Shown piece by piece: positions 2,248 to 20,193 of a stretch of 24,585 nt of DNA (position 1 is its first letter; each line of letters starts with the position of its first letter). The notes beneath the pieces are model-generated. The model was not told where the DNA came from. It worked only from the letters and a program-made list of their open reading frames with translations, and did not search any database. Origin of the DNA: a virus; the IMG/VR virus record IMGVR_UViG_3300023178_003305, positions 1 through 24,585 of that record; one strand, given 5' to 3'. The translations under genes were made by a program, and so were the position numbers.

Positions 2248-2667
2248 ATGAAACTACTATCAATTACTATAGCAGTTTTAATGGCTATGTCTTTTCCTGT
2301 ATATGCAGGAGATATCGCTATTGAAATGCTAAACAAAAGAGACGATGGAGCCAAGATGGTTTATGGTACCGACATTGCAAGAGTAGAAGTTGGTACTACA
2401 ATTACATGGATTCCAACATCAAAAGGTCATAATGTAGAATTTATCGCAGGCCCAGATGATTGGGAAGCACCAAAGAAATCTAAATTAGGCAAAGAGTATG
2501 CATATACATTTGATACACCAGGTGTATATCTATATCAATGTACACCACATAAATCAATGGGCATGATTGCCGTTGTTGTTGTAGGTGATGGTGACAATGA
2601 TATCTCAGGTGCAAAAGTAAAAGGCAAGTCCAAGAAAAAACTAAAAGAGATCTTGGAGCAACTGTAA
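2248..2667 (+). CDS. Pseudoazurin-like blue copper protein
   Basis: Periplasmic type 1 copper electron carrier. Signal peptide 1-20 (cut after VYA). The mature protein keeps the pseudoazurin pattern: IEMLNK start, GHNVE with ligand H61, then YQCTPHKSMGM with C98, H101 and M106, giving the 3- and 5-residue Cys-His-Met spacing. The length (139 with signal) and the Lys-rich C-terminal helices also fit. Known pseudoazurins donate electrons to nitrite reductase, peroxidases or oxidases. It lies in a run with a DoxX-like gene starting right after its stop and a possible CoxIV-like gene before it. AAAGGA upstream sets the ATG. In a phage this would be an auxiliary electron-transfer gene. Confidence 0.92.
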   Translation: MKLLSITIAVLMAMSFPVYAGDIAIEMLNKRDDGAKMVYGTDIARVEVGTTITWIPTSKGHNVEFIAGPDDWEAPKKSKLGKEYAYTFDTPGVYLYQCTPHKSMGMIAVVVVGDGDNDISGAKVKGKSKKKLKEILEQL

Positions 2668-3084
2668 ATGACAACATTAGCACAGCGAATTACCTCCGCA
2701 ATTCCTGAATTCTGTATGAGCCATTGGCTCATACGGATACCACTTATCATTGTATTCTTACAGCAAGGCATCAGTAAACTACCATTCTCAGTAGAAGATG
2801 CTGAAGCAATGGACTTGCCAGCGTTGGTTTGGTGGTTTGTTGTATATGGTGAGATTGGTGCTGGTATTGGACTTGCAGTTGGTGGTATTGTTATTGTTAA
2901 AGCATTAAAAGAACTACAAGATCTAATCACACGTTTTTCAGGTATTGTGATTTGTAGTATCATGACAGGTGTTATTTGGACACTACAACCAGAAAACTTA
3001 TGGGAGTTTTTGCTATATGATCCATTCCATGTTATGTTGTGGGTTGGTGGTTTGTTCTTCGCACTAAGAGGAAACAGAACGTGA
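2668..3084 (+). CDS. DoxX-family membrane protein
   Basis: 138-aa, four-helix membrane protein (segments near 21-36, 53-77, 90-108 and 115-134). The LQQGISKLP motif at the end of helix 1 is typical of DoxX/DoxD-like proteins, which are associated with quinone or thiol redox steps in several bacteria. It starts at the base following the pseudoazurin stop, with GGAG at 2654, so it is translated from the same message. Family assignment is probable; substrate unknown. Confidence 0.75.
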   Translation: MTTLAQRITSAIPEFCMSHWLIRIPLIIVFLQQGISKLPFSVEDAEAMDLPALVWWFVVYGEIGAGIGLAVGGIVIVKALKELQDLITRFSGIVICSIMTGVIWTLQPENLWEFLLYDPFHVMLWVGGLFFALRGNRT

Positions 3085-8643: not shown

Positions 8644-8668
8644 ATCTTGCTTAATAAGGAGAAATGAA

Positions 8669-9115
8669 ATGACAAGATTAACAACTCTAGACTTACCTCA
8701 CTTTACACGTGCCACAATTGGCTTTGATAGACTGTTTGATGAAATGACACGTTCATTCGAAAACACAAAGTCAAATGGTTACCCTCCATACAACATTGAA
8801 CAAATCAACGACAACGAGTATATGATTACACTCGCAGTTGCAGGTTTTAGTATGGAAGATTTGGACATTACACTAGAAAAGAATGTTCTTACAATCGAAG
8901 GTAATACTACAAAAGCAGACGAGGAAATAAACTATCTACACAAAGGGATTGGCGGACGCAACTTCCGTAGATCATTTACACTAGCTGAACACATCGAAGT
9001 AGAAGATGCTGGATTGGATTTAGGTATGTTAAACATTCATTTGAAAAGAAACGTACCAGAGGCAGAACAGCCAAAGAAAATTCAAATCCGTTCATTGAAC
9101 ACAATCGAAGGCTAA
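8669..9115 (+). CDS. Small heat-shock protein, Hsp20 family
   Basis: Holdase chaperone of the alpha-crystallin type. The domain spans about residues 30-125: YNIEQINDNEYMITLAVAGF, the LEKNVLTIEGN strand and GGRNFRRSFTLAEHI. A C-terminal KIQIR carries the I-x-I motif that links subunits. The 148-aa start at 8669 is preferred over a frame start at 8603 because AAGGAG stands just before it and the terminator at 8615 lies between. Hsp20 genes are near-universal in T4-like cyanophages and pelagiphages. Set between terminators on both sides, so it is probably its own unit. Confidence 0.93.
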   Translation: MTRLTTLDLPHFTRATIGFDRLFDEMTRSFENTKSNGYPPYNIEQINDNEYMITLAVAGFSMEDLDITLEKNVLTIEGNTTKADEEINYLHKGIGGRNFRRSFTLAEHIEVEDAGLDLGMLNIHLKRNVPEAEQPKKIQIRSLNTIEG

Positions 9116-9157: not shown

Positions 9158-9463
9158 ATGAGTACAGATACCGAAATTGTATTAGACGAAAAAATCAGTT
9201 TAGATATTAAAGAACCAAAAAAGTACAAGGTTCTATTATTAAATGATGATACAACTCCTATGGACTTTGTTGTAGGAATCTTAATTGAAATCTTTAAACA
9301 TACAGCTAGTACAGCAGAAACAATAACAATGAAAATACACAATGAAGGCAGCGGAGTAGTTGGCATTTATTCTCACGAAATTGCAGAAATGAAAGCAGCA
9401 GAAACTGTTAACTCAGCTAGGAATCAAGGCTTTTCATTGCAGGTTAAAATAGAGGAAGAATGA
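9158..9463 (+). CDS. clpS: ClpS-like adaptor of the Clp protease
   Basis: ClpS binds N-degron substrates and hands them to ClpAP. Motifs match: YKVLLLNDDTTPMDFVV (the NDD-TPM loop of the N-end pocket), then SGVVGIYSHEIAEMKAAE, the helix and His region. 101 aa is normal length. In ClpS the NDD-T-M segment and the later HEKG-type loop make the binding pocket; here HNEGSGVVGIY retains the His. It shares ATGA with the heme oxygenase start, so it is the first gene of a three-gene operon with the bilin genes. Phage ClpS may redirect host proteolysis. Confidence 0.92.
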   Translation: MSTDTEIVLDEKISLDIKEPKKYKVLLLNDDTTPMDFVVGILIEIFKHTASTAETITMKIHNEGSGVVGIYSHEIAEMKAAETVNSARNQGFSLQVKIEEE

Positions 9464-9999
9464 GCAAACTTAAAGAATTAACTTGGGAGAATCACCAAAA
9501 AGCCGAGCGTACAGAACACGCTCGTAAGTTACTAAAAGGTATGTCACCAGAAGAATATCACAGATATCTTTACAATCAATATGTTCAATATGCAGCATTA
9601 GAAAGCATCGCAAACACAGAAGGTGTTTTAACGGGTATTGAACGTATTGTAAGAGCACAACATATTCTAAACGACATTAAAGAGATTGAAAACGAACACA
9701 GCATTGAACGCAAGACAGAAGACATTTGTCCTGTGGTTGGAGAATATGTTGCACACGTAATGGGCTTAGAAGCCACAGATGATATTTTAGCACACATCTA
9801 TGTAAGACACTTTGGAGATATGTATGGCGGACAAATGATTGCAAAACGCAATCCAGGATCAGGCTCAATGTATGTGTTTGAAGATGTAGAAGAACTAAAA
9901 ACCACAGTAAGAGCAAAACTAAATGACAATATGGCAGACGAAGCCAATAGATGTTTTGAGTTTGCTATGCAACTATTTGAGGAGTTAGGTGATGAGTGA
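9460..9999 (+). CDS. Heme oxygenase
   Basis: Opens heme to biliverdin, releasing CO and iron, using ferredoxin-derived electrons. H12 in ENHQKAE matches the proximal heme-ligand His. HFGDMYGGQ (118-125) matches the distal helix GDLSGGQ, with D120 as the proton-relay Asp. At 179 aa it is shorter than cyanobacterial Ho1 (about 240), lacking the C-terminal part. It overlaps clpS by 4 bases and the bilin reductase by 8, so heme oxygenase and reductase are translated together, as in viral bilin operons. Released iron could also be a benefit for the infected cell. Confidence 0.88.
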   Translation: MSKLKELTWENHQKAERTEHARKLLKGMSPEEYHRYLYNQYVQYAALESIANTEGVLTGIERIVRAQHILNDIKEIENEHSIERKTEDICPVVGEYVAHVMGLEATDDILAHIYVRHFGDMYGGQMIAKRNPGSGSMYVFEDVEELKTTVRAKLNDNMADEANRCFEFAMQLFEELGDE

Positions 10000-10678
10000 A
10001 GTTTGGGATACGCTGATTAAAATACAAGACAGATTGATTGAACGTTTTGATGCAACAGGCACTGAAGTTGAAGAACAAGGCATGGATAGATTCAATCAGC
10101 CAGGTTGGATCAACAGAGTTTGGAACAGCGACAAATATCGCAGAGCACACGTTGATGTTGTAGATGCAAGAGACACAAAAGGTTTGTGGATGATGCATTG
10201 TTGTGTGTTTCCACACTTAGACAATGACGGTCCTATCTTTGGACTAGATGTTATCGCAGGTAAAAACAAAATCACAGGTTACTTCCATGACTACTCACCA
10301 ACAACTAATCCTGCCAACGAAATGATTGAAGCATTTGGCGATGAAGTTGCAAAACTAGAATGGCGCAAACCACGTGAACTACCAGAATGGGCTAAAGCAA
10401 TCTTTACTGAACATATGGTTGCAGCAGGTAATGTAAACAGCACAGAAGAACTAGAACAACTACTAGAATTAAGTTTTGATAGCATTGACAACTATTTAGA
10501 ATACATTGATGCTTACAATGGTATAGGTAAAGAAGAAACGGGCAAGGAAGCACAAAACCGTTATGCTCACTTTCAAAAACAAAATCCTCACACGCCTCGC
10601 ACAATGACAAGTTTAGGACTTGACGAGGAAGATGTGCGTGTATTCGTACAGGAATGTTTATTCCCTGATATTGACTAA
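9992..10678 (+). CDS. pcyX: Ferredoxin-dependent bilin reductase, PcyX-like
   Basis: Reduces biliverdin using ferredoxin. The FDBR core is clear: MHCCVFPHLDNDGPIFGLDVIAG, GYFHDYSP, RELPEW and, near the end, NPHTPRTM...CLFPD. By alignment from memory with PcyA, H69 and D86 match catalytic H88 and D105, while PcyA E76 is replaced by D55 (AHVDV). That combination fits the PcyX clade from uncultured marine phages, whose members make phycoerythrobilin; the product here is inferred. ATG 9992 follows GAGGAG; a GTG one codon earlier is possible. No ferredoxin or biliprotein is encoded nearby, so electrons and any acceptor must come from the host or from elsewhere in the phage. Confidence 0.85.
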   Translation: MSEVWDTLIKIQDRLIERFDATGTEVEEQGMDRFNQPGWINRVWNSDKYRRAHVDVVDARDTKGLWMMHCCVFPHLDNDGPIFGLDVIAGKNKITGYFHDYSPTTNPANEMIEAFGDEVAKLEWRKPRELPEWAKAIFTEHMVAAGNVNSTEELEQLLELSFDSIDNYLEYIDAYNGIGKEETGKEAQNRYAHFQKQNPHTPRTMTSLGLDEEDVRVFVQECLFPDID

Positions 10679-11778: not shown

Positions 11779-12237
11779 ATGCGATACATACTATTATTAC
11801 TTTTCTTACCAACACTAGCCTCAGCGGATTTAGTACACAATTTTAAATCACCAGCATTTACAGGACAGGGTTACAGTGCCCATATGTTGAGTCTTGAACA
11901 ACTTACTTTTAATCGAAAAGAAGATATAGAAAAAGAAGCAGAACGTGAACAAGAACGGATAGAGCGTGAACTTGAAAACACAGTGCTTAACAAATTTATA
12001 CGCAACTTGGAATCACGTATCTATGCTACTCTATCAAAACAATTAGTAGATGGAATGTTCGCAGCCTGCGGTGAAGAAGATCAACCAGCGTGTGCTAATT
12101 CAGGTACCACAGAAGTAGAAGGTGCCCAAATTACGTGGACAAAGGACGAAACAACAGGAAGCATTACACTAATAGTAGATGGGCCTGACGGATACACAGA
12201 AATTACAATACCAGGTGCAGGAGAATTTAACTTTTGA
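11779..12237 (+). CDS. csgF: CsgF-like curli assembly protein
   Basis: CsgF caps the CsgG pore and couples secretion to fibre nucleation. Signal peptide 1-16 (cut after ASA). The mature start LVHNFKSPAFTGQGYSAHML matches the CsgF pattern (F-x-N/S-P-x-F-x-G) that inserts into CsgG. A charged helical stretch (45-85) and a beta C-terminus ending in Phe follow. The region of residues 95-110 with two Cys is not part of canonical CsgF. There is no Shine-Dalgarno; the ATG is 5 bases after a late promoter. It overlaps csgG by 4 bases. Confidence 0.8.
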   Translation: MRYILLLLFLPTLASADLVHNFKSPAFTGQGYSAHMLSLEQLTFNRKEDIEKEAEREQERIERELENTVLNKFIRNLESRIYATLSKQLVDGMFAACGEEDQPACANSGTTEVEGAQITWTKDETTGSITLIVDGPDGYTEITIPGAGEFNF

Positions 12238-13037
12238 AATATCTAGCATTGATATTATCGCTGGCAATCACAGGATGTGCAGCAAAAGGCAAAGTTCCTA
12301 GTGTATTGCAAAAACCGCCAAGTGTGCAAGAAAATCCAATGGTTACAGAACTTAACGACTTACCTGAATTAGATGGTCCTAGAATGACCGTGGGTGTATA
12401 TGAGTTTGTTGATAAAACTGGACAACGTAAGCCAGCAGACAATGTAGCTAACCTAAGTTCTGCTGTGACACAAGGTGCAGAGGTTTGGGTAATAGATGCA
12501 CTACTACAAGCAGGTGATGGAACCTATTTTGAAGTTGTAGAACGTGGCGGAATGGATCACGTTATTAAAGAACGTCAACTTATACGTAACACAAGAGAAA
12601 ACTATGAAAAAGACAATCCTACACCATTAGCAGCAATGAAGTTTGCAGGTGTGTTGGTCGAAGGCGGCATCGTAGGTTATGATAGCAATATTCAAACTGG
12701 CGGTAATGGTGCTATGTATTTGGGGGTAGGTACAGCAGTTGAATACAGAGTTGACACTGTAACAGTTGCTATGCGTCTTGTAAGTGTTAGCACAGGGCGT
12801 GTACTAGTAAGTGTAGCAGCAGAAAAATCAATAGCAAGTTACAGACAAGGTGCGAGCGCATTTAAGTTTTTTGATTTAGGCACAGAAGCATTGGAAATAG
12901 AAACTGGATATTCAGTAAATGAACCAACAAACTATGCAGTGCGTCAAGCCATAGAAGCAGCAATTATAGAATTAATTTATCAAGGCGCTGAACAAAAACT
13001 GTGGAAGTTTAAAGAAGACAATACTTCTTCATCTTAG
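12234..13037 (+). CDS. csgG: CsgG-like outer-membrane secretion lipoprotein, TTG start
   Basis: CsgG forms a nine-subunit outer-membrane channel that exports curlins. The lipobox ITGC puts the acylated cysteine at C15 (E. coli C16). CsgG features follow: VGVYEFVDKTGQRKP, VTQGAEVWVIDAL, FEVVERGGMDHVIKERQLIR, then the transmembrane hairpins around VEGGIVGYDSN and YLGVGTAVEYRVDTVTVAMRLVS. Length 267 is near E. coli's 277. The start must be TTG 12234 (CAGGAG upstream, overlapping the csgF stop), because no ATG precedes the lipobox in frame. Its last 29 bases overlap the end of the antisense Fis-like gene. Confidence 0.92.
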   Translation: MKYLALILSLAITGCAAKGKVPSVLQKPPSVQENPMVTELNDLPELDGPRMTVGVYEFVDKTGQRKPADNVANLSSAVTQGAEVWVIDALLQAGDGTYFEVVERGGMDHVIKERQLIRNTRENYEKDNPTPLAAMKFAGVLVEGGIVGYDSNIQTGGNGAMYLGVGTAVEYRVDTVTVAMRLVSVSTGRVLVSVAAEKSIASYRQGASAFKFFDLGTEALEIETGYSVNEPTNYAVRQAIEAAIIELIYQGAEQKLWKFKEDNTSSS

Positions 13038-13281
13038 CCAAAAGCGTTTCCCTTTTTATTCCTAATTTATCAGCAGTGTGTGTGCGATTGTGATTGCACT
13101 CTTTTAGAGCTGATGAAATCCTATCTATTATAAAATCATCTACTTCGTCGTGTAAGCATTTATCGTCATAGTGACGGTCTTGCACAGGCCAAATTTCGTC
13201 GAATGTATCCCAAAATTCTTGTTGTTCTTTGTGTATTTTTTCTGCTTTTTCTAATGCGCTCATAACTGTATTTATATTCAT
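13009..13281 (-). CDS. Fis-like helix-turn-helix regulator
   Basis: A 90-aa protein whose C-terminal third is the Fis/NtrC-type DNA-binding helix-turn-helix: ISSALKECNHNRTHTADKLGIKRETLLAKMKKY (residues 55-87 in two halves), with the conserved N-R-A/T and LGI-R-TL-KKL-K-Y pattern. Length resembles Fis (98). The acidic N-terminal part differs. ATG 13281 has TAGGTG upstream. It is the only leftward gene in this half of the window, tail to tail with csgG and divergent from the curlin gene, sharing a 106-base intergenic region that holds a palindrome. It may regulate the curli-like locus or itself. Confidence 0.8.
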   Translation of the reverse strand: MNINTVMSALEKAEKIHKEQQEFWDTFDEIWPVQDRHYDDKCLHDEVDDFIIDRISSALKECNHNRTHTADKLGIKRETLLAKMKKYCLL

Positions 13282-13297
13282 TAAACACCTACTTTAC

Positions 13298-13313
13298 TGT
13301 AAAAATATTTACA
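13298..13313. promoter_or_regulatory. Palindromic operator candidate
   Basis: TGTAAA-AATA-TTTACA, a 6-4-6 inverted repeat 17 bases upstream of the Fis-like start and 75 bases upstream of the first curlin gene. It would suit a dimeric regulator controlling both directions. It does not match the E. coli Fis consensus well. Confidence 0.45.
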
Positions 13314-13349
13314 CTAAATATCTTTGTATTTATGTGGCTGTGAGGGACG

Positions 13350-13357
13350 GATAAATA
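13350..13357 (+). promoter_or_regulatory. Late promoter, GATAAATA
   Basis: Seven of eight bases match TATAAATA, 30 bases before the curlin-1 ATG, leaving room for the GGAGG ribosome binding site at 13373. Another TAAATA core at 13315-13320 lies further upstream. Confidence 0.6.
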
Positions 13358-13387
13358 TGTTTGGCGTAAGCCGGAGGATGATATAAA

Positions 13388-14125
13388 ATGAGGGCAATAC
13401 TATACGGGGCTATCCTGTCATTGGTTCTCGCAAGTGCAGCGTATGCAAACGAGATTTACATCACACAAATTGGTGACACATTAGACTTGGATATTACCCA
13501 AGATGGAACAGATAACGAGTTTGGTGATTCAACCACCGATGTAACTCTGGACGGTGATGATATGACGTTCAGCATAACACAAACAGGTAACAGCAATATT
13601 ATTGATGCTAAAATAAAAGGTAATTCATATACTGGTACTTGGACTTTTACAGGCAACAACAATTTTGTTGATTTGGTCTGTGATGATACATCAGGTGTAA
13701 ACTGTGAAAACGTTACGCTGAATATTGCAACACAAGGCGATACCAACAAGTACTATCTAGAAATTGGTGAAACAGCAGATGCTGACGGAGCACAGGTAGA
13801 CTTTGAAGTAGACGGTGACGGAAACATATTGATCACTGAAGTAGATGGAACAAGCGCAGTAGTAAACATTACATTAGATAACAGTAACACCATAAGCACA
13901 GCAACAACATCAGATTCAACATCAACATACACATCAGGACAAGGTGGTACGGTAATCGAGATAGATCAAGATGGAGATGGCGACAGTGCAGGACACAGCG
14001 TTACCCTTGACATCACCGGCGGCGGCAGTAACTACTACATTAAACAAAGCGGTGTTAAAGACAACACAGTAGATGCTACATTCTCAGGTGACGAGCATGA
14101 TGTTGATATTACGCAGTCTGATTAG
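13388..14125 (+). CDS. Curlin-repeat (amyloid-like) secreted protein 1
   Basis: Signal peptide 1-20 (cut after AYA), then a protein made of imperfect curlin-type repeats with the Q-x-G-x-x-N core: ITQIGD, ITQDGTDN, ITQTGNSN, TFTGNNN, ATQGDTN, DQDGDGD and ITQSD at the very end. Repeats are irregular and very acidic, less Gln/Asn-regular than CsgA. It shares NEIYI-QIGD and ITQDG-NN-GD with the second curlin gene at 15142, so the two are paralogues. 245 aa is longer than CsgA (about 150). Late promoter 13350; GGAGG SD. Likely substrate or nucleator for the CsgG/CsgF-like pore. Confidence 0.78.
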   Translation: MRAILYGAILSLVLASAAYANEIYITQIGDTLDLDITQDGTDNEFGDSTTDVTLDGDDMTFSITQTGNSNIIDAKIKGNSYTGTWTFTGNNNFVDLVCDDTSGVNCENVTLNIATQGDTNKYYLEIGETADADGAQVDFEVDGDGNILITEVDGTSAVVNITLDNSNTISTATTSDSTSTYTSGQGGTVIEIDQDGDGDSAGHSVTLDITGGGSNYYIKQSGVKDNTVDATFSGDEHDVDITQSD

Positions 14126-15209
14126 TCTATTAATTTTAACCACACCTGTATACGCAAGCATTGGGGAAATAGCACAGCATAAAGGCAGCAGTGTTGTTGA
14201 ACGTGAACAACTCAAGTATGACGGCGAAGTAGGACTTGGGCTTGAGATGAACGATAGGATCATCACAGGCAAAGGCAGTTTACGTATGGACTTTGTGGAT
14301 GAGACCCGTGTTGATGTTACAGAACATTCACGTATGACCATAGACGAATTTATCTATGACCCAAACACAAAAACTGGCGCACTAAGTATGAAAGCCACAT
14401 TAGGAGCAGTGCGTTATGCGTCAGGACAAATAGCAAAGAACAGCAGACAACGTGTGAATATAAGAACACCAAGTGCTACAATCAACGTGCGAGGCACAGA
14501 CTTTATAATGATTATAGATGAAGTAGGTGGATCAATGATAACATTGTTACCAAGTTGTGATGCATCAGGACAATGTATTGTGGGCGAAATATCAGTTGAA
14601 TCAGATGTTGGACAGGTTATAATGAACCAAGCATATCAAACCACAGTGGTGCCACACAGCGGAGCGATACCTGGTCCTACAGTGATATTAGACTTGCCTG
14701 AAAATATGCTTACATCAATGTTAATAATAAGAAAAGTAGACCCATACACAGAAGAAATAGTAAAACGCTATCCAGAGACCAATCTGTTGGACATTGATTT
14801 CCTAAAGTTTGATGAACTGGATAAAGATCCATTGATAGAAGGCATCAAAAACATTTGGGTAACAGACTTAGACAATATGACCTACTTGAATCCTGTGTGG
14901 GTAGACGAAATGGAACGTCAACTACAGGAGATATTAGCACAGTGGATTGATGAACTTACAGTGCAAAACCAAGAATTATTAGATGTAAAGTTTTTAGGAC
15001 TTGATCCAGAAACAAATATTTTTTATGATGAACCATTTCCTAATTTTGTCGTGCGTAGACAAGAAGGTGATCAGCACATATTCCAACTTACATTGGATCA
15101 AGGTTATGGATACACTATAGATATGGAACAGGAGAGTTTTTATGAATACGGCTACCGTGTTGGCGTGGGCGGCGGGAATAGTATTACTATTACCCAACGT
15201 AACTTCTAG
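14097..15209 (+). CDS. FecR-domain periplasmic protein
   Basis: Signal peptide 1-20 (VYA). A FecR-type domain occupies about 21-170: a GLEMNDRIITGKGSLRMDF-like core, a TRVDVTEHSRM strand and a VNIRTPSATINVRGTDF repeat unit. The C-terminal half is acidic, with helical and beta parts. FecR domains in Proteobacteria act as periplasmic sensors or scaffold proteins; no sigma factor is encoded nearby, so classical FecI control is not indicated. Start ATG 14097 has AGGTG 7 bases before; it overlaps curlin-1 by 29 bases. The last 68 bases overlap curlin-2, and the C-terminal SITITQRNF echoes a curlin repeat. Confidence 0.82.
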   Translation: MMLILRSLISLLILTTPVYASIGEIAQHKGSSVVEREQLKYDGEVGLGLEMNDRIITGKGSLRMDFVDETRVDVTEHSRMTIDEFIYDPNTKTGALSMKATLGAVRYASGQIAKNSRQRVNIRTPSATINVRGTDFIMIIDEVGGSMITLLPSCDASGQCIVGEISVESDVGQVIMNQAYQTTVVPHSGAIPGPTVILDLPENMLTSMLIIRKVDPYTEEIVKRYPETNLLDIDFLKFDELDKDPLIEGIKNIWVTDLDNMTYLNPVWVDEMERQLQEILAQWIDELTVQNQELLDVKFLGLDPETNIFYDEPFPNFVVRRQEGDQHIFQLTLDQGYGYTIDMEQESFYEYGYRVGVGGGNSITITQRNF

Positions 15210-16200
15210 TAATGAAATCTATATTAATCAGATAGGTGACGATGTCACTGTGACTATCACTCAGGATGGAGAAAATAACAAGATTGGTGATTTGAATAAT
15301 CTATCAAACAAAGGTTTGTTAGGAAGTTATGGTCCTTCAACATACACTTATTCACAAACAGGCAACAACAATACGCTTGGATTTTACAATGCTGATATAG
15401 GAGATAGTAGTAGCACTCTAACACAGACTGGCGATAATAATGCGGCTGTGATAGACTGTCACGGTGAAGACTGCACAATGAGCGTTACACAACTAGGTGA
15501 CAACAATGATGCTCACGCCGAAACTGGCAGTAGTTACAGTGATGATGGCAATACAATCGTAATATATCAAAACGGTGATTACAACGAATCGTATGCAGAA
15601 GCCGACGGAGACAGCAATGACTTAGATAGTTATCAAGGATCAGACAATAACTTTAGCCGTGTTGTAGTATCGGGTAATTATAATGCTGTCAATGCTTGGC
15701 AAGGCAAGCATTCAGATAACACTGTAGACGGTGACGAAACTGGTGATCACGAAGTATACTGGACTGTTACAGGCGATAATAATATGCTAGACAGTTATCA
15801 AACAGACACCAACAGAGCCAGTGGTGGTGGTGCCGGACATCATATAGCAAATGTTGTAAATGGTGATGACAATTCAGTTACACATACACAAAAAGGCAAA
15901 GCAGGACACGATGGTTTTATAGAAATACAAGGCGACAGCAACACAGTAGAACTATATCAAAGAGGCAATGGTGGACAACAATGGGCAGACATAGTGCTTA
16001 CAGGTGATGATCATAGTGTTGATGCTAGTCAACGTGGAACTATGGCACATTCATTTGAAGTTGATCTTACAAACAGCGGCGGTGCTTACAGTGTAAATAG
16101 CAATCAAACAACTAACAACACAGCCACAAGCAAGACCTACAGCCTTACTGGTATTTGCACTAATGGTAATGGTTGCAACGTAACAGTGAGTCAAAACTAA
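15142..16200 (+). CDS. Curlin-repeat (amyloid-like) secreted protein 2
   Basis: A 352-aa secreted protein: signal peptide about 1-23, then at least ten curlin-like units, many with Q-x-G-x-N-N: INQIGDD, ITQDGENN, YSQTGNNN, LTQTGDNN, VTQLGDNN, IYQNGDYN, SYQGSDNN, VTGDNN, HTQKG, LYQRG and ASQRG. More regular than curlin-1 and the best candidate for the main fibre subunit. One Cys pair (CHGEDC) and a late pair (CTNGNGC) are unlike CsgA. AGGAGA precedes ATG 15142, which lies 68 bases inside the FecR gene. The stop shares a base with the next start. Confidence 0.85.
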   Translation: MNTATVLAWAAGIVLLLPNVTSSNEIYINQIGDDVTVTITQDGENNKIGDLNNLSNKGLLGSYGPSTYTYSQTGNNNTLGFYNADIGDSSSTLTQTGDNNAAVIDCHGEDCTMSVTQLGDNNDAHAETGSSYSDDGNTIVIYQNGDYNESYAEADGDSNDLDSYQGSDNNFSRVVVSGNYNAVNAWQGKHSDNTVDGDETGDHEVYWTVTGDNNMLDSYQTDTNRASGGGAGHHIANVVNGDDNSVTHTQKGKAGHDGFIEIQGDSNTVELYQRGNGGQQWADIVLTGDDHSVDASQRGTMAHSFEVDLTNSGGAYSVNSNQTTNNTATSKTYSLTGICTNGNGCNVTVSQN

Positions 16201-17993: not shown

Positions 17994-18151
17994 TATGGTT
18001 AGCTTTAACTAGCACACAACAAATGGAAACATATCATTTAGGCAACTATCCAGATAAAGATACTTGTGTCACAGCTATGAGCGCAGCAAGTGTGCTTGTT
18101 ACAGACAAAAATCAGACAGTAGATTGTGTATGGATTAATGTGAATAAATGA
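17981..18151 (+). CDS. Small secreted two-Cys protein
   Basis: ATG 17981 (GGAG at 17969) reads 56 codons: a short hydrophobic leader (MWALIWLALTS), then a polar domain with C29 and C49 that could form a disulfide. The TGA stop overlaps the cyclase ATG (ATGA), so it is coupled to the cyclase gene and may be a periplasmic partner of its CHASE2 domain. Layout resembles the small protein at 3081. Confidence 0.6.
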   Translation: MWALIWLALTSTQQMETYHLGNYPDKDTCVTAMSAASVLVTDKNQTVDCVWINVNK

Positions 18152-20193
18152 AAAAGATAATATTTTCCCCTATTTGGAGCATTATAGTTTTGGGCATTCT
18201 TGCGTGGGTGATGTACAGCAATCCACCGTTCTTAGAAAGTCTTAAACTACGATACTTTGATACACTGATAGTGAATCAGCAAGCCGTAGAAAACAACATC
18301 TACACTGTTAACATTGACGAATCAAGTTTAGAGGAATACGGGCAATGGCCTTGGCCAAGAGGTGATTATGGTAGCCTCATAGAGGAGTTGTATGCCAGAG
18401 GCGCTGGACTAGTTGTGTTTAACGTGTTGATGAGCGAAACAGACCGTCAAGGCGAGGATATCGATCTTGCCTTGACTATGTCACAACTTCCAGTTATTAT
18501 CACAATGCTGGGGGCAGAGGAAAATAAAAATGAACCAATCAATCCTGGTGCTACTATCGTTAACAGTGATTATCTTTACACTATTCCTAGTGTGCCAGGA
18601 ATCATTGCAAATGTCCCCGATATCGAAAATTCAGCAGTTGGGTCAGGCATTACAAACAGCTGGCCAGAAATAGATGGTGTAACTAGACGCATACCATTAG
18701 TGGTTGAATCCGGAGGCACATTGTATCCAAATGTTACTATGGAAGTGCTTCGTGTATTAGCAGGTGATCCAAGTTTCCAAATCAAACTATCTCCTATGGG
18801 TGTAGACAAGTTGCGTATACCACAGTTTGGTATTATACAAACATCACCAACAGGCGAAGTATGGATAGACTGGAGTCAAAAGTCAAAGTCTTACAGCGCA
18901 GTAGATTTACCAGATGATTTTGCTGGAGGTATAGTGTTTGTAGGACCTACAGCAGCAGGTGTAACACAGCCACTTGCAACAGCAGCAGGTTCAGTGTTTC
19001 CACATGAAATCCAAGCAGCAATGTTAGGTACAGTTTTTAATGAATCAAACATTGCAAGACAACCAGATGCAGAACAATGGGCAGAGTTAGCCGCCTTTGT
19101 AGCAGCAGGTATAATACTTATTTTAATCGCACGATGGACGTATTTCGGCATAGCCTTTTTTGTGTTGGCAGTTGGCGGTGGCCTATATGGTAGTTACTAT
19201 ATATTTGCACAGTACGGATTGCTCGTCGACGGGTTTATACCAGCAGCATTTTTAATTTTAGTAGGATTAAAACGCTATGTGCTCAAGTTCATAGATGAGT
19301 TCTTGCAAAAACAAGCAATAAAGAAACAATTCGAAGGTTATGCATCACCAGCAGTTGTAAAAATATTGCAAGAAAATCCTGCACTTATCAAACAAGGCAC
19401 TAAACGAGAAGTCAGTATTGTATTCTCAGACTTGCGTGGCTTTACTCCATTGGGTGAATCATTTGGCGATGACGTGCAAGGACTCACAAGAATAATGAAC
19501 GGCTATATGGATGCCATTACACAACCTGTGCTAGACGCAGACGGAATGATAATCAAGTATATTGGTGATGCTAGTATGCACATACATAATGCACCCGTAG
19601 ACGATCCTAATCACGCTCGCACAGCAGTACAGTGTGGATTAGATATGTTAAAAGCAGTGGAGAAGTTTAATGAAGACATTATTATACCAGAAGGAAGGCC
19701 GCCTGTTGGTATGGGCGCTGGGATCAATACTGGGCTTGGCTATATTGGTGAAATGGGTAGCACTAAGCGCCATAGTTATGATGTTCTCGGGGATGCTGTC
19801 AGCACAGCAGCACGAGTTGAATCCAAATGTAAAGAATACGGATGCTTATTACTTGTGGGAGAAAGCACATACGAAGCAATCAAAGACGACTTCTTTTGGC
19901 TCAAAGTAGATGACTTACAAGTAAAAGGTAAATCAGTAGGATTGAGTATTTACACTGTGCTAGATGACATAGGACCTGCCTGGGTATCTGCACAAAAGAA
20001 ACACGAACAAATGCACGAAGATTATCGTGCGCAAAGATTTGATGATGCTATAGATAAATGTCGTTTGCTACACGATCATTTTGATCACAAGATGGAAGGC
20101 TACTATGATATGTGGATTGAACGTTGTGAGTATATGAAAACACAAGATTTACCATCAGACTGGAATGGTGTGTTTATCGCAACAAGTAAATAA
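18148..20193 (+). CDS. CHASE2-domain class III adenylate cyclase
   Basis: Membrane receptor cyclase making cAMP. Order: TM1 (about 7-23); periplasmic CHASE2 domain (about 30-300) with the typical YTVNIDESSLEEYGQWPWPR start; three TM segments (about 312-375); linker; catalytic domain (about 415-600). Catalytic residues: metal-binding D428 (FSDLRGF) and D474 (YIGDA), and adenine-selective K470 with D545 (SYDVLGD). R556 of AARVES is kept, but the transition-state Asn position is Ser (S552 in DAVST), a variant I recall in some alphaproteobacterial CHASE2 cyclases. C-terminal 610-681 is helical. It follows a small secreted protein (ATGA overlap). The CHASE2 ligand is unknown; with FecR and curlin genes upstream, envelope sensing is a reasonable inference. 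Confidence 0.92.
   Translation: MKKIIFSPIWSIIVLGILAWVMYSNPPFLESLKLRYFDTLIVNQQAVENNIYTVNIDESSLEEYGQWPWPRGDYGSLIEELYARGAGLVVFNVLMSETDRQGEDIDLALTMSQLPVIITMLGAEENKNEPINPGATIVNSDYLYTIPSVPGIIANVPDIENSAVGSGITNSWPEIDGVTRRIPLVVESGGTLYPNVTMEVLRVLAGDPSFQIKLSPMGVDKLRIPQFGIIQTSPTGEVWIDWSQKSKSYSAVDLPDDFAGGIVFVGPTAAGVTQPLATAAGSVFPHEIQAAMLGTVFNESNIARQPDAEQWAELAAFVAAGIILILIARWTYFGIAFFVLAVGGGLYGSYYIFAQYGLLVDGFIPAAFLILVGLKRYVLKFIDEFLQKQAIKKQFEGYASPAVVKILQENPALIKQGTKREVSIVFSDLRGFTPLGESFGDDVQGLTRIMNGYMDAITQPVLDADGMIIKYIGDASMHIHNAPVDDPNHARTAVQCGLDMLKAVEKFNEDIIIPEGRPPVGMGAGINTGLGYIGEMGSTKRHSYDVLGDAVSTAARVESKCKEYGCLLLVGESTYEAIKDDFFWLKVDDLQVKGKSVGLSIYTVLDDIGPAWVSAQKKHEQMHEDYRAQRFDDAIDKCRLLHDHFDHKMEGYYDMWIERCEYMKTQDLPSDWNGVFIATSK
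20187..20192 (+). promoter_or_regulatory. Late promoter core 5 bases before an ATG
   Basis: TAAATA at the cyclase stop, followed by AGTGT and ATG 20198: the same spacing as TAAATA-GCTGT-ATG at csgF. No SD is present. Confidence 0.5.

Follow-up and report, generated by a model that had tools for sequence, protein, structure and literature searches.

Bilin-synthesis genes have been described in phages (Dammeyer, 2008, as cited in PMC3037559), and why they are present there is a 'mystery' to one study (PMC3037559) and 'enigmatic' to another (PMC11480375). In marine phages, published cassettes pair a haem oxygenase (HemO) with PcyX, a ferredoxin-dependent bilin reductase (FDBR), with sequences resembling those of the SAR11 phage Mosig (PMC11480375). 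The presence of hemO and pcyX in a phage of a heterotroph, including an isolate that infects SAR11, is therefore already known. Like Mosig (Pelagibacter phage Mosig EXVC030M) and PcyX_EBK42635, the locus examined here has adjacent hemO and pcyX genes, an aspartate at position 55 of the reductase and a place in the same clade of the reductase tree, and it is 47% identical to Mosig in the FDBR and 37% in HemO. The settings differ, however: in Mosig the cassette lies among structural genes, with no clpS beside it and no tail repeats of the kind described below, whereas here it stands behind hsp20 and clpS in a jumbo-phage backbone, with no valaS seen adjoining it. That backbone is best compared with the jumbo isolates PA5oct, Phosso and Vibrio phage 2.275, which are 65-72% identical in the capsid and 43-56% in TerL to three large contigs carrying PcyX. 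They share clpS with the PcyX clade, with hsp20 near clpS in PA5oct and Phosso, but have neither hemO nor an FDBR at the clpS locus and no tail repeats with a CxRD motif. T4-like cyanophages (S-PM2, S-CAM1 and others) do resemble the PcyX jumbo phages in having giant tail proteins with CxRD repeats of predicted phycobiliprotein fold and bilin-related genes (cpeT, pcyA), but they have another backbone, carry cpeT either in place of a PcyA/PebS-type enzyme or along with one, and have fewer repeats, with the motif arginine present in 29 of 40.

The stretch of DNA analysed, here called the window, is an entire IMG/VR fragment of 24,585 bases, the rest of its own genome lying beyond reach. On its + strand runs a conserved series, hsp20-clpS-hemO-pcyX. 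The series opens with hsp20 (8668..9115, with its ATG at 8668), which encodes a small heat-shock protein (Pfam HSP20, E=2.3e-17), and continues with clpS (9158..9463; Pfam ClpS, E=2e-28), for an adaptor of the host ClpAP protease, hemO (9460..9999; Pfam Heme_oxygenase, E=4.4e-16), for the enzyme that converts haem to biliverdin, Fe2+ and CO, and pcyX (9992..10678; Pfam Fe_bilin_red, E=1e-16), for an FDBR of the phycoerythrobilin-synthase type. The clpS/hemO junction is an ATGA overlap, and hemO overlaps the reductase gene by exactly 8 bases when the latter begins at the ATG at 9992, the start from which the numbering of D55, H69 and D86 is correct; the list of open reading frames begins it at an upstream GTG, at 9989. 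Open reading frames and Pfam matches thus agree with the preliminary description, in which clpS, hemO and the FDBR overlap as one operon at these positions. Beyond its family match, ClpS has N29, D30, T33 and H61 invariant across 53 homologues, residues that we take to match the N-degron pocket of E. coli ClpS. In HemO, H12 is invariant and the RHFGDxxGG motif retained across 59 homologues, so that the axial histidine and the distal GDxxGG of the haem oxygenase family are both present. Promoter, terminator and T4-late-promoter patterns occurred at chance level only.

Among solved structures, the window reductase is closest to PcyX_EBK42635 (PDB 5owg; E=7e-67), with PcyA at 3.5e-13. Aligned to PcyX_EBK42635 and Synechocystis PcyA, it keeps H69 and D86, and its D55 pairs with an aspartate in the former and with the glutamate in the RKMHLEL stretch of the latter. 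Asp55 has been named as PcyX-specific (PMC11480375), and all three residues are invariant in 59 of 59 distinct relatives. In a tree of 71 sequences including PcyA, PebS and PcyX, with a bootstrap not fully settled and a very long PebS branch, the window group falls with Mosig and PcyX_EBK42635 on one side (97/94), while cyanophage and Synechocystis PcyA stand apart (100/98), placing the reductase outside cyanobacterial PcyA. Sequence, catalytic residue and tree together identify the enzyme as a PcyX, as had been proposed from its residues at these positions, and its product in this phage would be the pink, light-absorbing phycoerythrobilin, judging from family membership. We also scanned bacteria and archaea, with about 85,000 species represented by a single genome each, in a search that reaches close relatives only, and obtained one PcyX relative, on a 3.3-kb contig of a Flavobacteriaceae MAG. 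The genes of this contig match the phage locus, and we read it as a stray phage fragment and rejected a bacterial home for this PcyX.

How constant this arrangement is can be judged from the relatives. Scanning with the FDBR yielded 160 relatives, from which 80 loci were retained, 59 of them with distinct FDBRs. In these loci the genes recur on one strand in the order hsp20 (52/59), clpS (53/59), hemO (59/59) and FDBR (59/59), with the hsp20 homologue directly upstream of clpS in all 52, clpS and hemO translationally coupled in 35, hemO following the FDBR in two, and clpS far off in one. Because these loci had been picked by their FDBR, the survey was repeated from clpS, requiring at least 2.5 kb of downstream sequence. 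Here, hemO and the FDBR were present in 44 of 44 distinct loci, hsp20 directly upstream of clpS in 43, and dnaK was present in 29, counts that are valid for this clade since only the 80 most query-like of at least 568 clpS genes were taken. The clpS-hemO-FDBR arrangement is far beyond chance. Upstream of hsp20-clpS-hemO-pcyX, 32 of the 59 FDBR-chosen loci (L078, L064, L035 and others) encode a phage DnaK of about 625 aa, and the window has no dnaK. Some loci have varied genes inserted between hemO and pcyX, with no obvious bilin gene shared among these insertions. Curli genes were considered as a constant partner of the cassette and rejected, csgF/csgG following in only 22-26 of the 59 loci. 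The kind of cassette is known, but its setting is new and constant, as a core feature of an uncultured clade of T4-superfamily jumbo phages of 280-400 kb, and this constancy makes it look like a core function rather than a passing accessory gene.

The part that deserves follow-up is a candidate biliprotein in the same phages. Two related records have open frames exceeding 4,100 aa with Pfam Phycobilisome matches above the cut-off, which fall within a tandem repeat unit of about 135 aa that makes up giant tail-like proteins of the jumbo relatives; some repeats pass the cut-off and others do not, and the window itself contains none. The most copies per genome, 41, were found on one 399.8-kb contig, while a second profile found 35 copies in a single protein of 6,682 aa, and the PHROG matches of the repeats are to tail-fibre and virion structural proteins. 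We built two template-free AlphaFold2 models, one from a 70-row alignment and one from a 22-row alignment of repeats from three cassette-bearing contigs only, with mean pLDDT of 95 and 92. Among the best 50 Foldseek matches in the PDB, 49 and 50, respectively, were phycobiliproteins, with a probability of 1.00 and query TM-scores of about 0.6-0.8 at E-values of only about 1e-3 to 1e-2. A repeat profile matched 27 PDB sequences, almost exclusively phycobiliproteins, with a best E of 0.014 and the alignment covering the helix that bears CxRD. When this motif was hidden from the search profile to avoid circularity, it was still conserved in the repeats at cysteine (762/776, 98%), arginine (705/776, 91%) and aspartate (767/776, 99%). 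CxRD is the chromophore motif of phycobiliproteins and of some bilin-biosynthesis-associated globins (BBAGs), and CxRD-bearing BBAGs of heterotrophs bind bilins without lyases (PMC10151467). The tail repeats share with these proteins the motif and a predicted globin-like fold, but are arranged in tandem within phage proteins of 750-6,700 aa and are only about 15-20% identical to them. The models thus predict a phycobiliprotein fold for the tail repeats and make them candidates for binding bilin. In a literature search of incomplete coverage, we found no earlier work linking phage tails to this fold.

Among the jumbo phages, the repeat occurs in 8 of 8 cassette contigs longer than 200 kb, as opposed to none of the three related isolates that have no cassette (Phosso, PA5oct and Vibrio 2.275), and it is also absent from Mosig, HTVC008M and T4. 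It also occurs in 11 of 12 cyanophages tested, weakly in P-SSM4, with P-SSM2 lacking it, and when 50,697 phage records were searched twice with single repeats, all matches were to cyanophages apart from one single-cell marine virus record. The backbones of cyanophages and PcyX jumbo phages are far apart, and common descent of whole genomes therefore does not explain the repeat in both. In the five cyanophages opened (S-PM2, S-CAM1, ACG-2014j, S-RIM32 and Sf-FP1), a CpeT-like gene lies shortly upstream of the giant repeat gene. In Sf-FP1 (L359, record 19469-34753), a 12,972-bp virion structural gene bearing the repeat is immediately preceded by cpeT, a 2OG-Fe(II) oxygenase gene and an FDBR gene, the last of these 37 bp upstream of it. 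In P-HM2 the repeat is located in gp7, with no cpeT in the surrounding 18 kb that were viewed. Of the other repeat-bearing contigs, 35 of 36 have no FDBR; because the same contigs also lack clpS and are mostly fragments, they count neither for nor against a tight link between repeat and PcyX. One of them, 249 kb long, has CpeT.

The reading that we favour, at a little below even confidence, is that the window carries the hsp20-clpS-hemO-pcyX operon of a T4-superfamily jumbo phage and that its bilin serves as a chromophore for the phage's own tail proteins. In the infected cell, HemO would cleave host haem to biliverdin, which PcyX, drawing on host ferredoxin, would reduce to phycoerythrobilin, as the family membership of the enzyme suggests. 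Phycoerythrobilin would then be the chromophore of the giant tail-like proteins with their strings of CxRD repeats, attaching while tails are made inside the cell, either spontaneously or via some lyase. The analysis establishes the cassette, how well it is conserved, its PcyX type, and the motif, predicted fold and co-occurrence of the repeats; from these we infer the product in this phage, the binding of bilin, the loading of tails and a function in the virion. Extended further, and here our view is tentative and leans slightly toward doubt, cyanophages and the PcyX jumbo phages of heterotrophs may both build tail-fibre or baseplate proteins from tandem, bilin-loaded domains of the phycobiliprotein type, making the virion a biliprotein that hemO, pcyX, pebS, pcyA and cpeT would at least partly serve. 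If true, the repeats would represent a phycobiliprotein relative of a new kind, found outside photosynthesis and perhaps absorbing light as part of the virion. The biliprotein-like domain also gives future work something definite to test, for which cyanophage isolates are already at hand. Several findings count against tail proteins as the destination of the bilin. Mosig has hemO and pcyX yet lacks the repeat, and P-SSM2, which carries bilin genes, lacks it as well. To these are added the 35 repeat contigs without an FDBR, the modest Foldseek E-values, the repeat-free window, P-HM2 without a nearby cpeT, and the finding of no CpeT-family lyase in the PcyX jumbo phages.

A cassette without the repeat, as in Mosig, also agrees with a role in haem salvage or redox protection, where HemO would free iron for phage iron enzymes and remove toxic haem, PcyX would only clear or detoxify biliverdin, and the CxRD repeats would be an unrelated structural module. 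Iron supply has already been proposed for such cassettes (PMC11480375), hsp20 and, in many loci, dnaK place the cassette next to stress genes, ribonucleotide reductase is encoded by related jumbo phages, and one PcyX jumbo contig (G007, IMGVR_UViG_3300047510_001118) encodes a ferrochelatase homologous to that of Mosig at 162241-162864. HemO alone, however, would free the iron, and a four-electron reductase of the PEB type in 59 of 59 loci points to a product that is wanted. Salvage also leaves the co-occurrence with the CxRD repeats unexplained, and we regard it as rather unlikely.

The linkage of clpS to the bilin genes had suggested an angle in proteolysis. This linkage is real and conserved, but the isolates place it in another light: the Phosso locus reads hsp20-tdk-clpS, that of PA5oct has a heat-shock gene followed by clpS, and in Vibrio phage 2.275 clpS adjoins an S21 gene, all without hemO or an FDBR there. 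Because clpS stands at these loci without bilin genes, it is probably older than the cassette, an old backbone gene behind which the bilin genes were added, and a functional link between haem and proteolysis is possible but not needed. In plastids, turnover of GluTR is Clp-dependent and involves ClpS binding, and in Salmonella the proteolysis of HemA is regulated by haem (PMC7966870). Phage ClpS could direct host ClpAP against HemA, whether this is a glutamyl-tRNA reductase or an ALA synthase, with HemO and PcyX depleting haem at the same time, and the operon would in this way rewire the haem economy of the host. The coupling of clpS and hemO in 35 of 59 loci and the cassette beside clpS in 44 of 44 would suit such a switch, but with clpS present without the cassette in three isolates, and the cassette without clpS in Mosig, we consider it improbable.

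The use of the bilin in tails, as favoured above, concerns phages whose host is likely a heterotrophic bacterium. Lacking capsid and TerL genes, the window was assigned to the jumbo clade by gene order and by where its FDBR falls in the tree, and the earlier view of it as a non-cyanobacterial phage is upheld indirectly, through relatives of up to 400 kb. The capsid, TerL, portal and polymerase of three large PcyX contigs most resemble those of PA5oct (Pseudomonas), Phosso (Sinorhizobium) and Vibrio phage 2.275. Trees of TerL and capsid group them with these isolates at 100/100, far from S-PM2, Mosig and T4, and they have 59-86 genes in common with the isolates as against 25-31 with S-PM2. Neither psbA nor psbD was found in 30 related records (up to 400 kb), and the backbone of the relatives is not of the cyanophage type. 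A heterotrophic host is likely for the clade, as far as genomes can tell, because the backbone groups with jumbo phages of Pseudomonas, Sinorhizobium and Vibrio and because psbA and psbD are absent from these 30 records. That the jumbo phages infect cyanobacteria after all, their cassette topping up the phycobilisome pigment of the host as proposed for cyanophages, would accord with tail repeats known, among isolates, from cyanophages and with a protein of the plastocyanin/azurin family at 2248-2667 of the window; against the backbone, the lack of psbA and psbD, and a PcyX that stands apart from cyanophage PcyA, we find this very improbable. The preliminary description had stated that the window contains no photosynthesis gene or phycobiliprotein, which is correct; for phycobiliproteins it is true of the window only, as the genomes of its relatives have many CxRD tail repeats of predicted phycobiliprotein fold. 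The search that it had proposed for ferredoxin and biliprotein genes, run on the relatives, found no Fer2 (2Fe-2S) ferredoxin in 30 records and, on the biliprotein side, many of these tail repeats. Least probable of all is a bilin serving as chromophore for a photoreceptor of host or phage, for although a viral PcyA product can load phytochrome (PMC11480375) and a CHASE2-cyclase gene lies nearby (18148-20193), no phytochrome PHY domain was found in 30 related records and the window cyclase consists of CHASE2 and the cyclase domain only.

This cyclase, a membrane protein that combines CHASE2 with an adenylate/guanylate cyclase domain, is conserved in several relatives and may provide a phage-encoded cyclic-nucleotide signal. 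The copper protein of the plastocyanin/azurin family is followed by a membrane protein of the DoxX family, the two together spanning 2248-3084. Downstream of the cassette, a curli-type cluster (11779-16200) comprises csgF, csgG, a FecR-domain protein and two curlin-repeat proteins (13388-14125 and 15142-16200). The gene for a small protein with a Fis-type helix-turn-helix (13009-13281, - strand) runs opposite to the cluster and separates csgG from the first curlin gene. In pelagimyophages, csgF and csgG have been reported with CsgA and CsgB called missing (PMC7029224), whereas the window contains curlin-repeat candidates.
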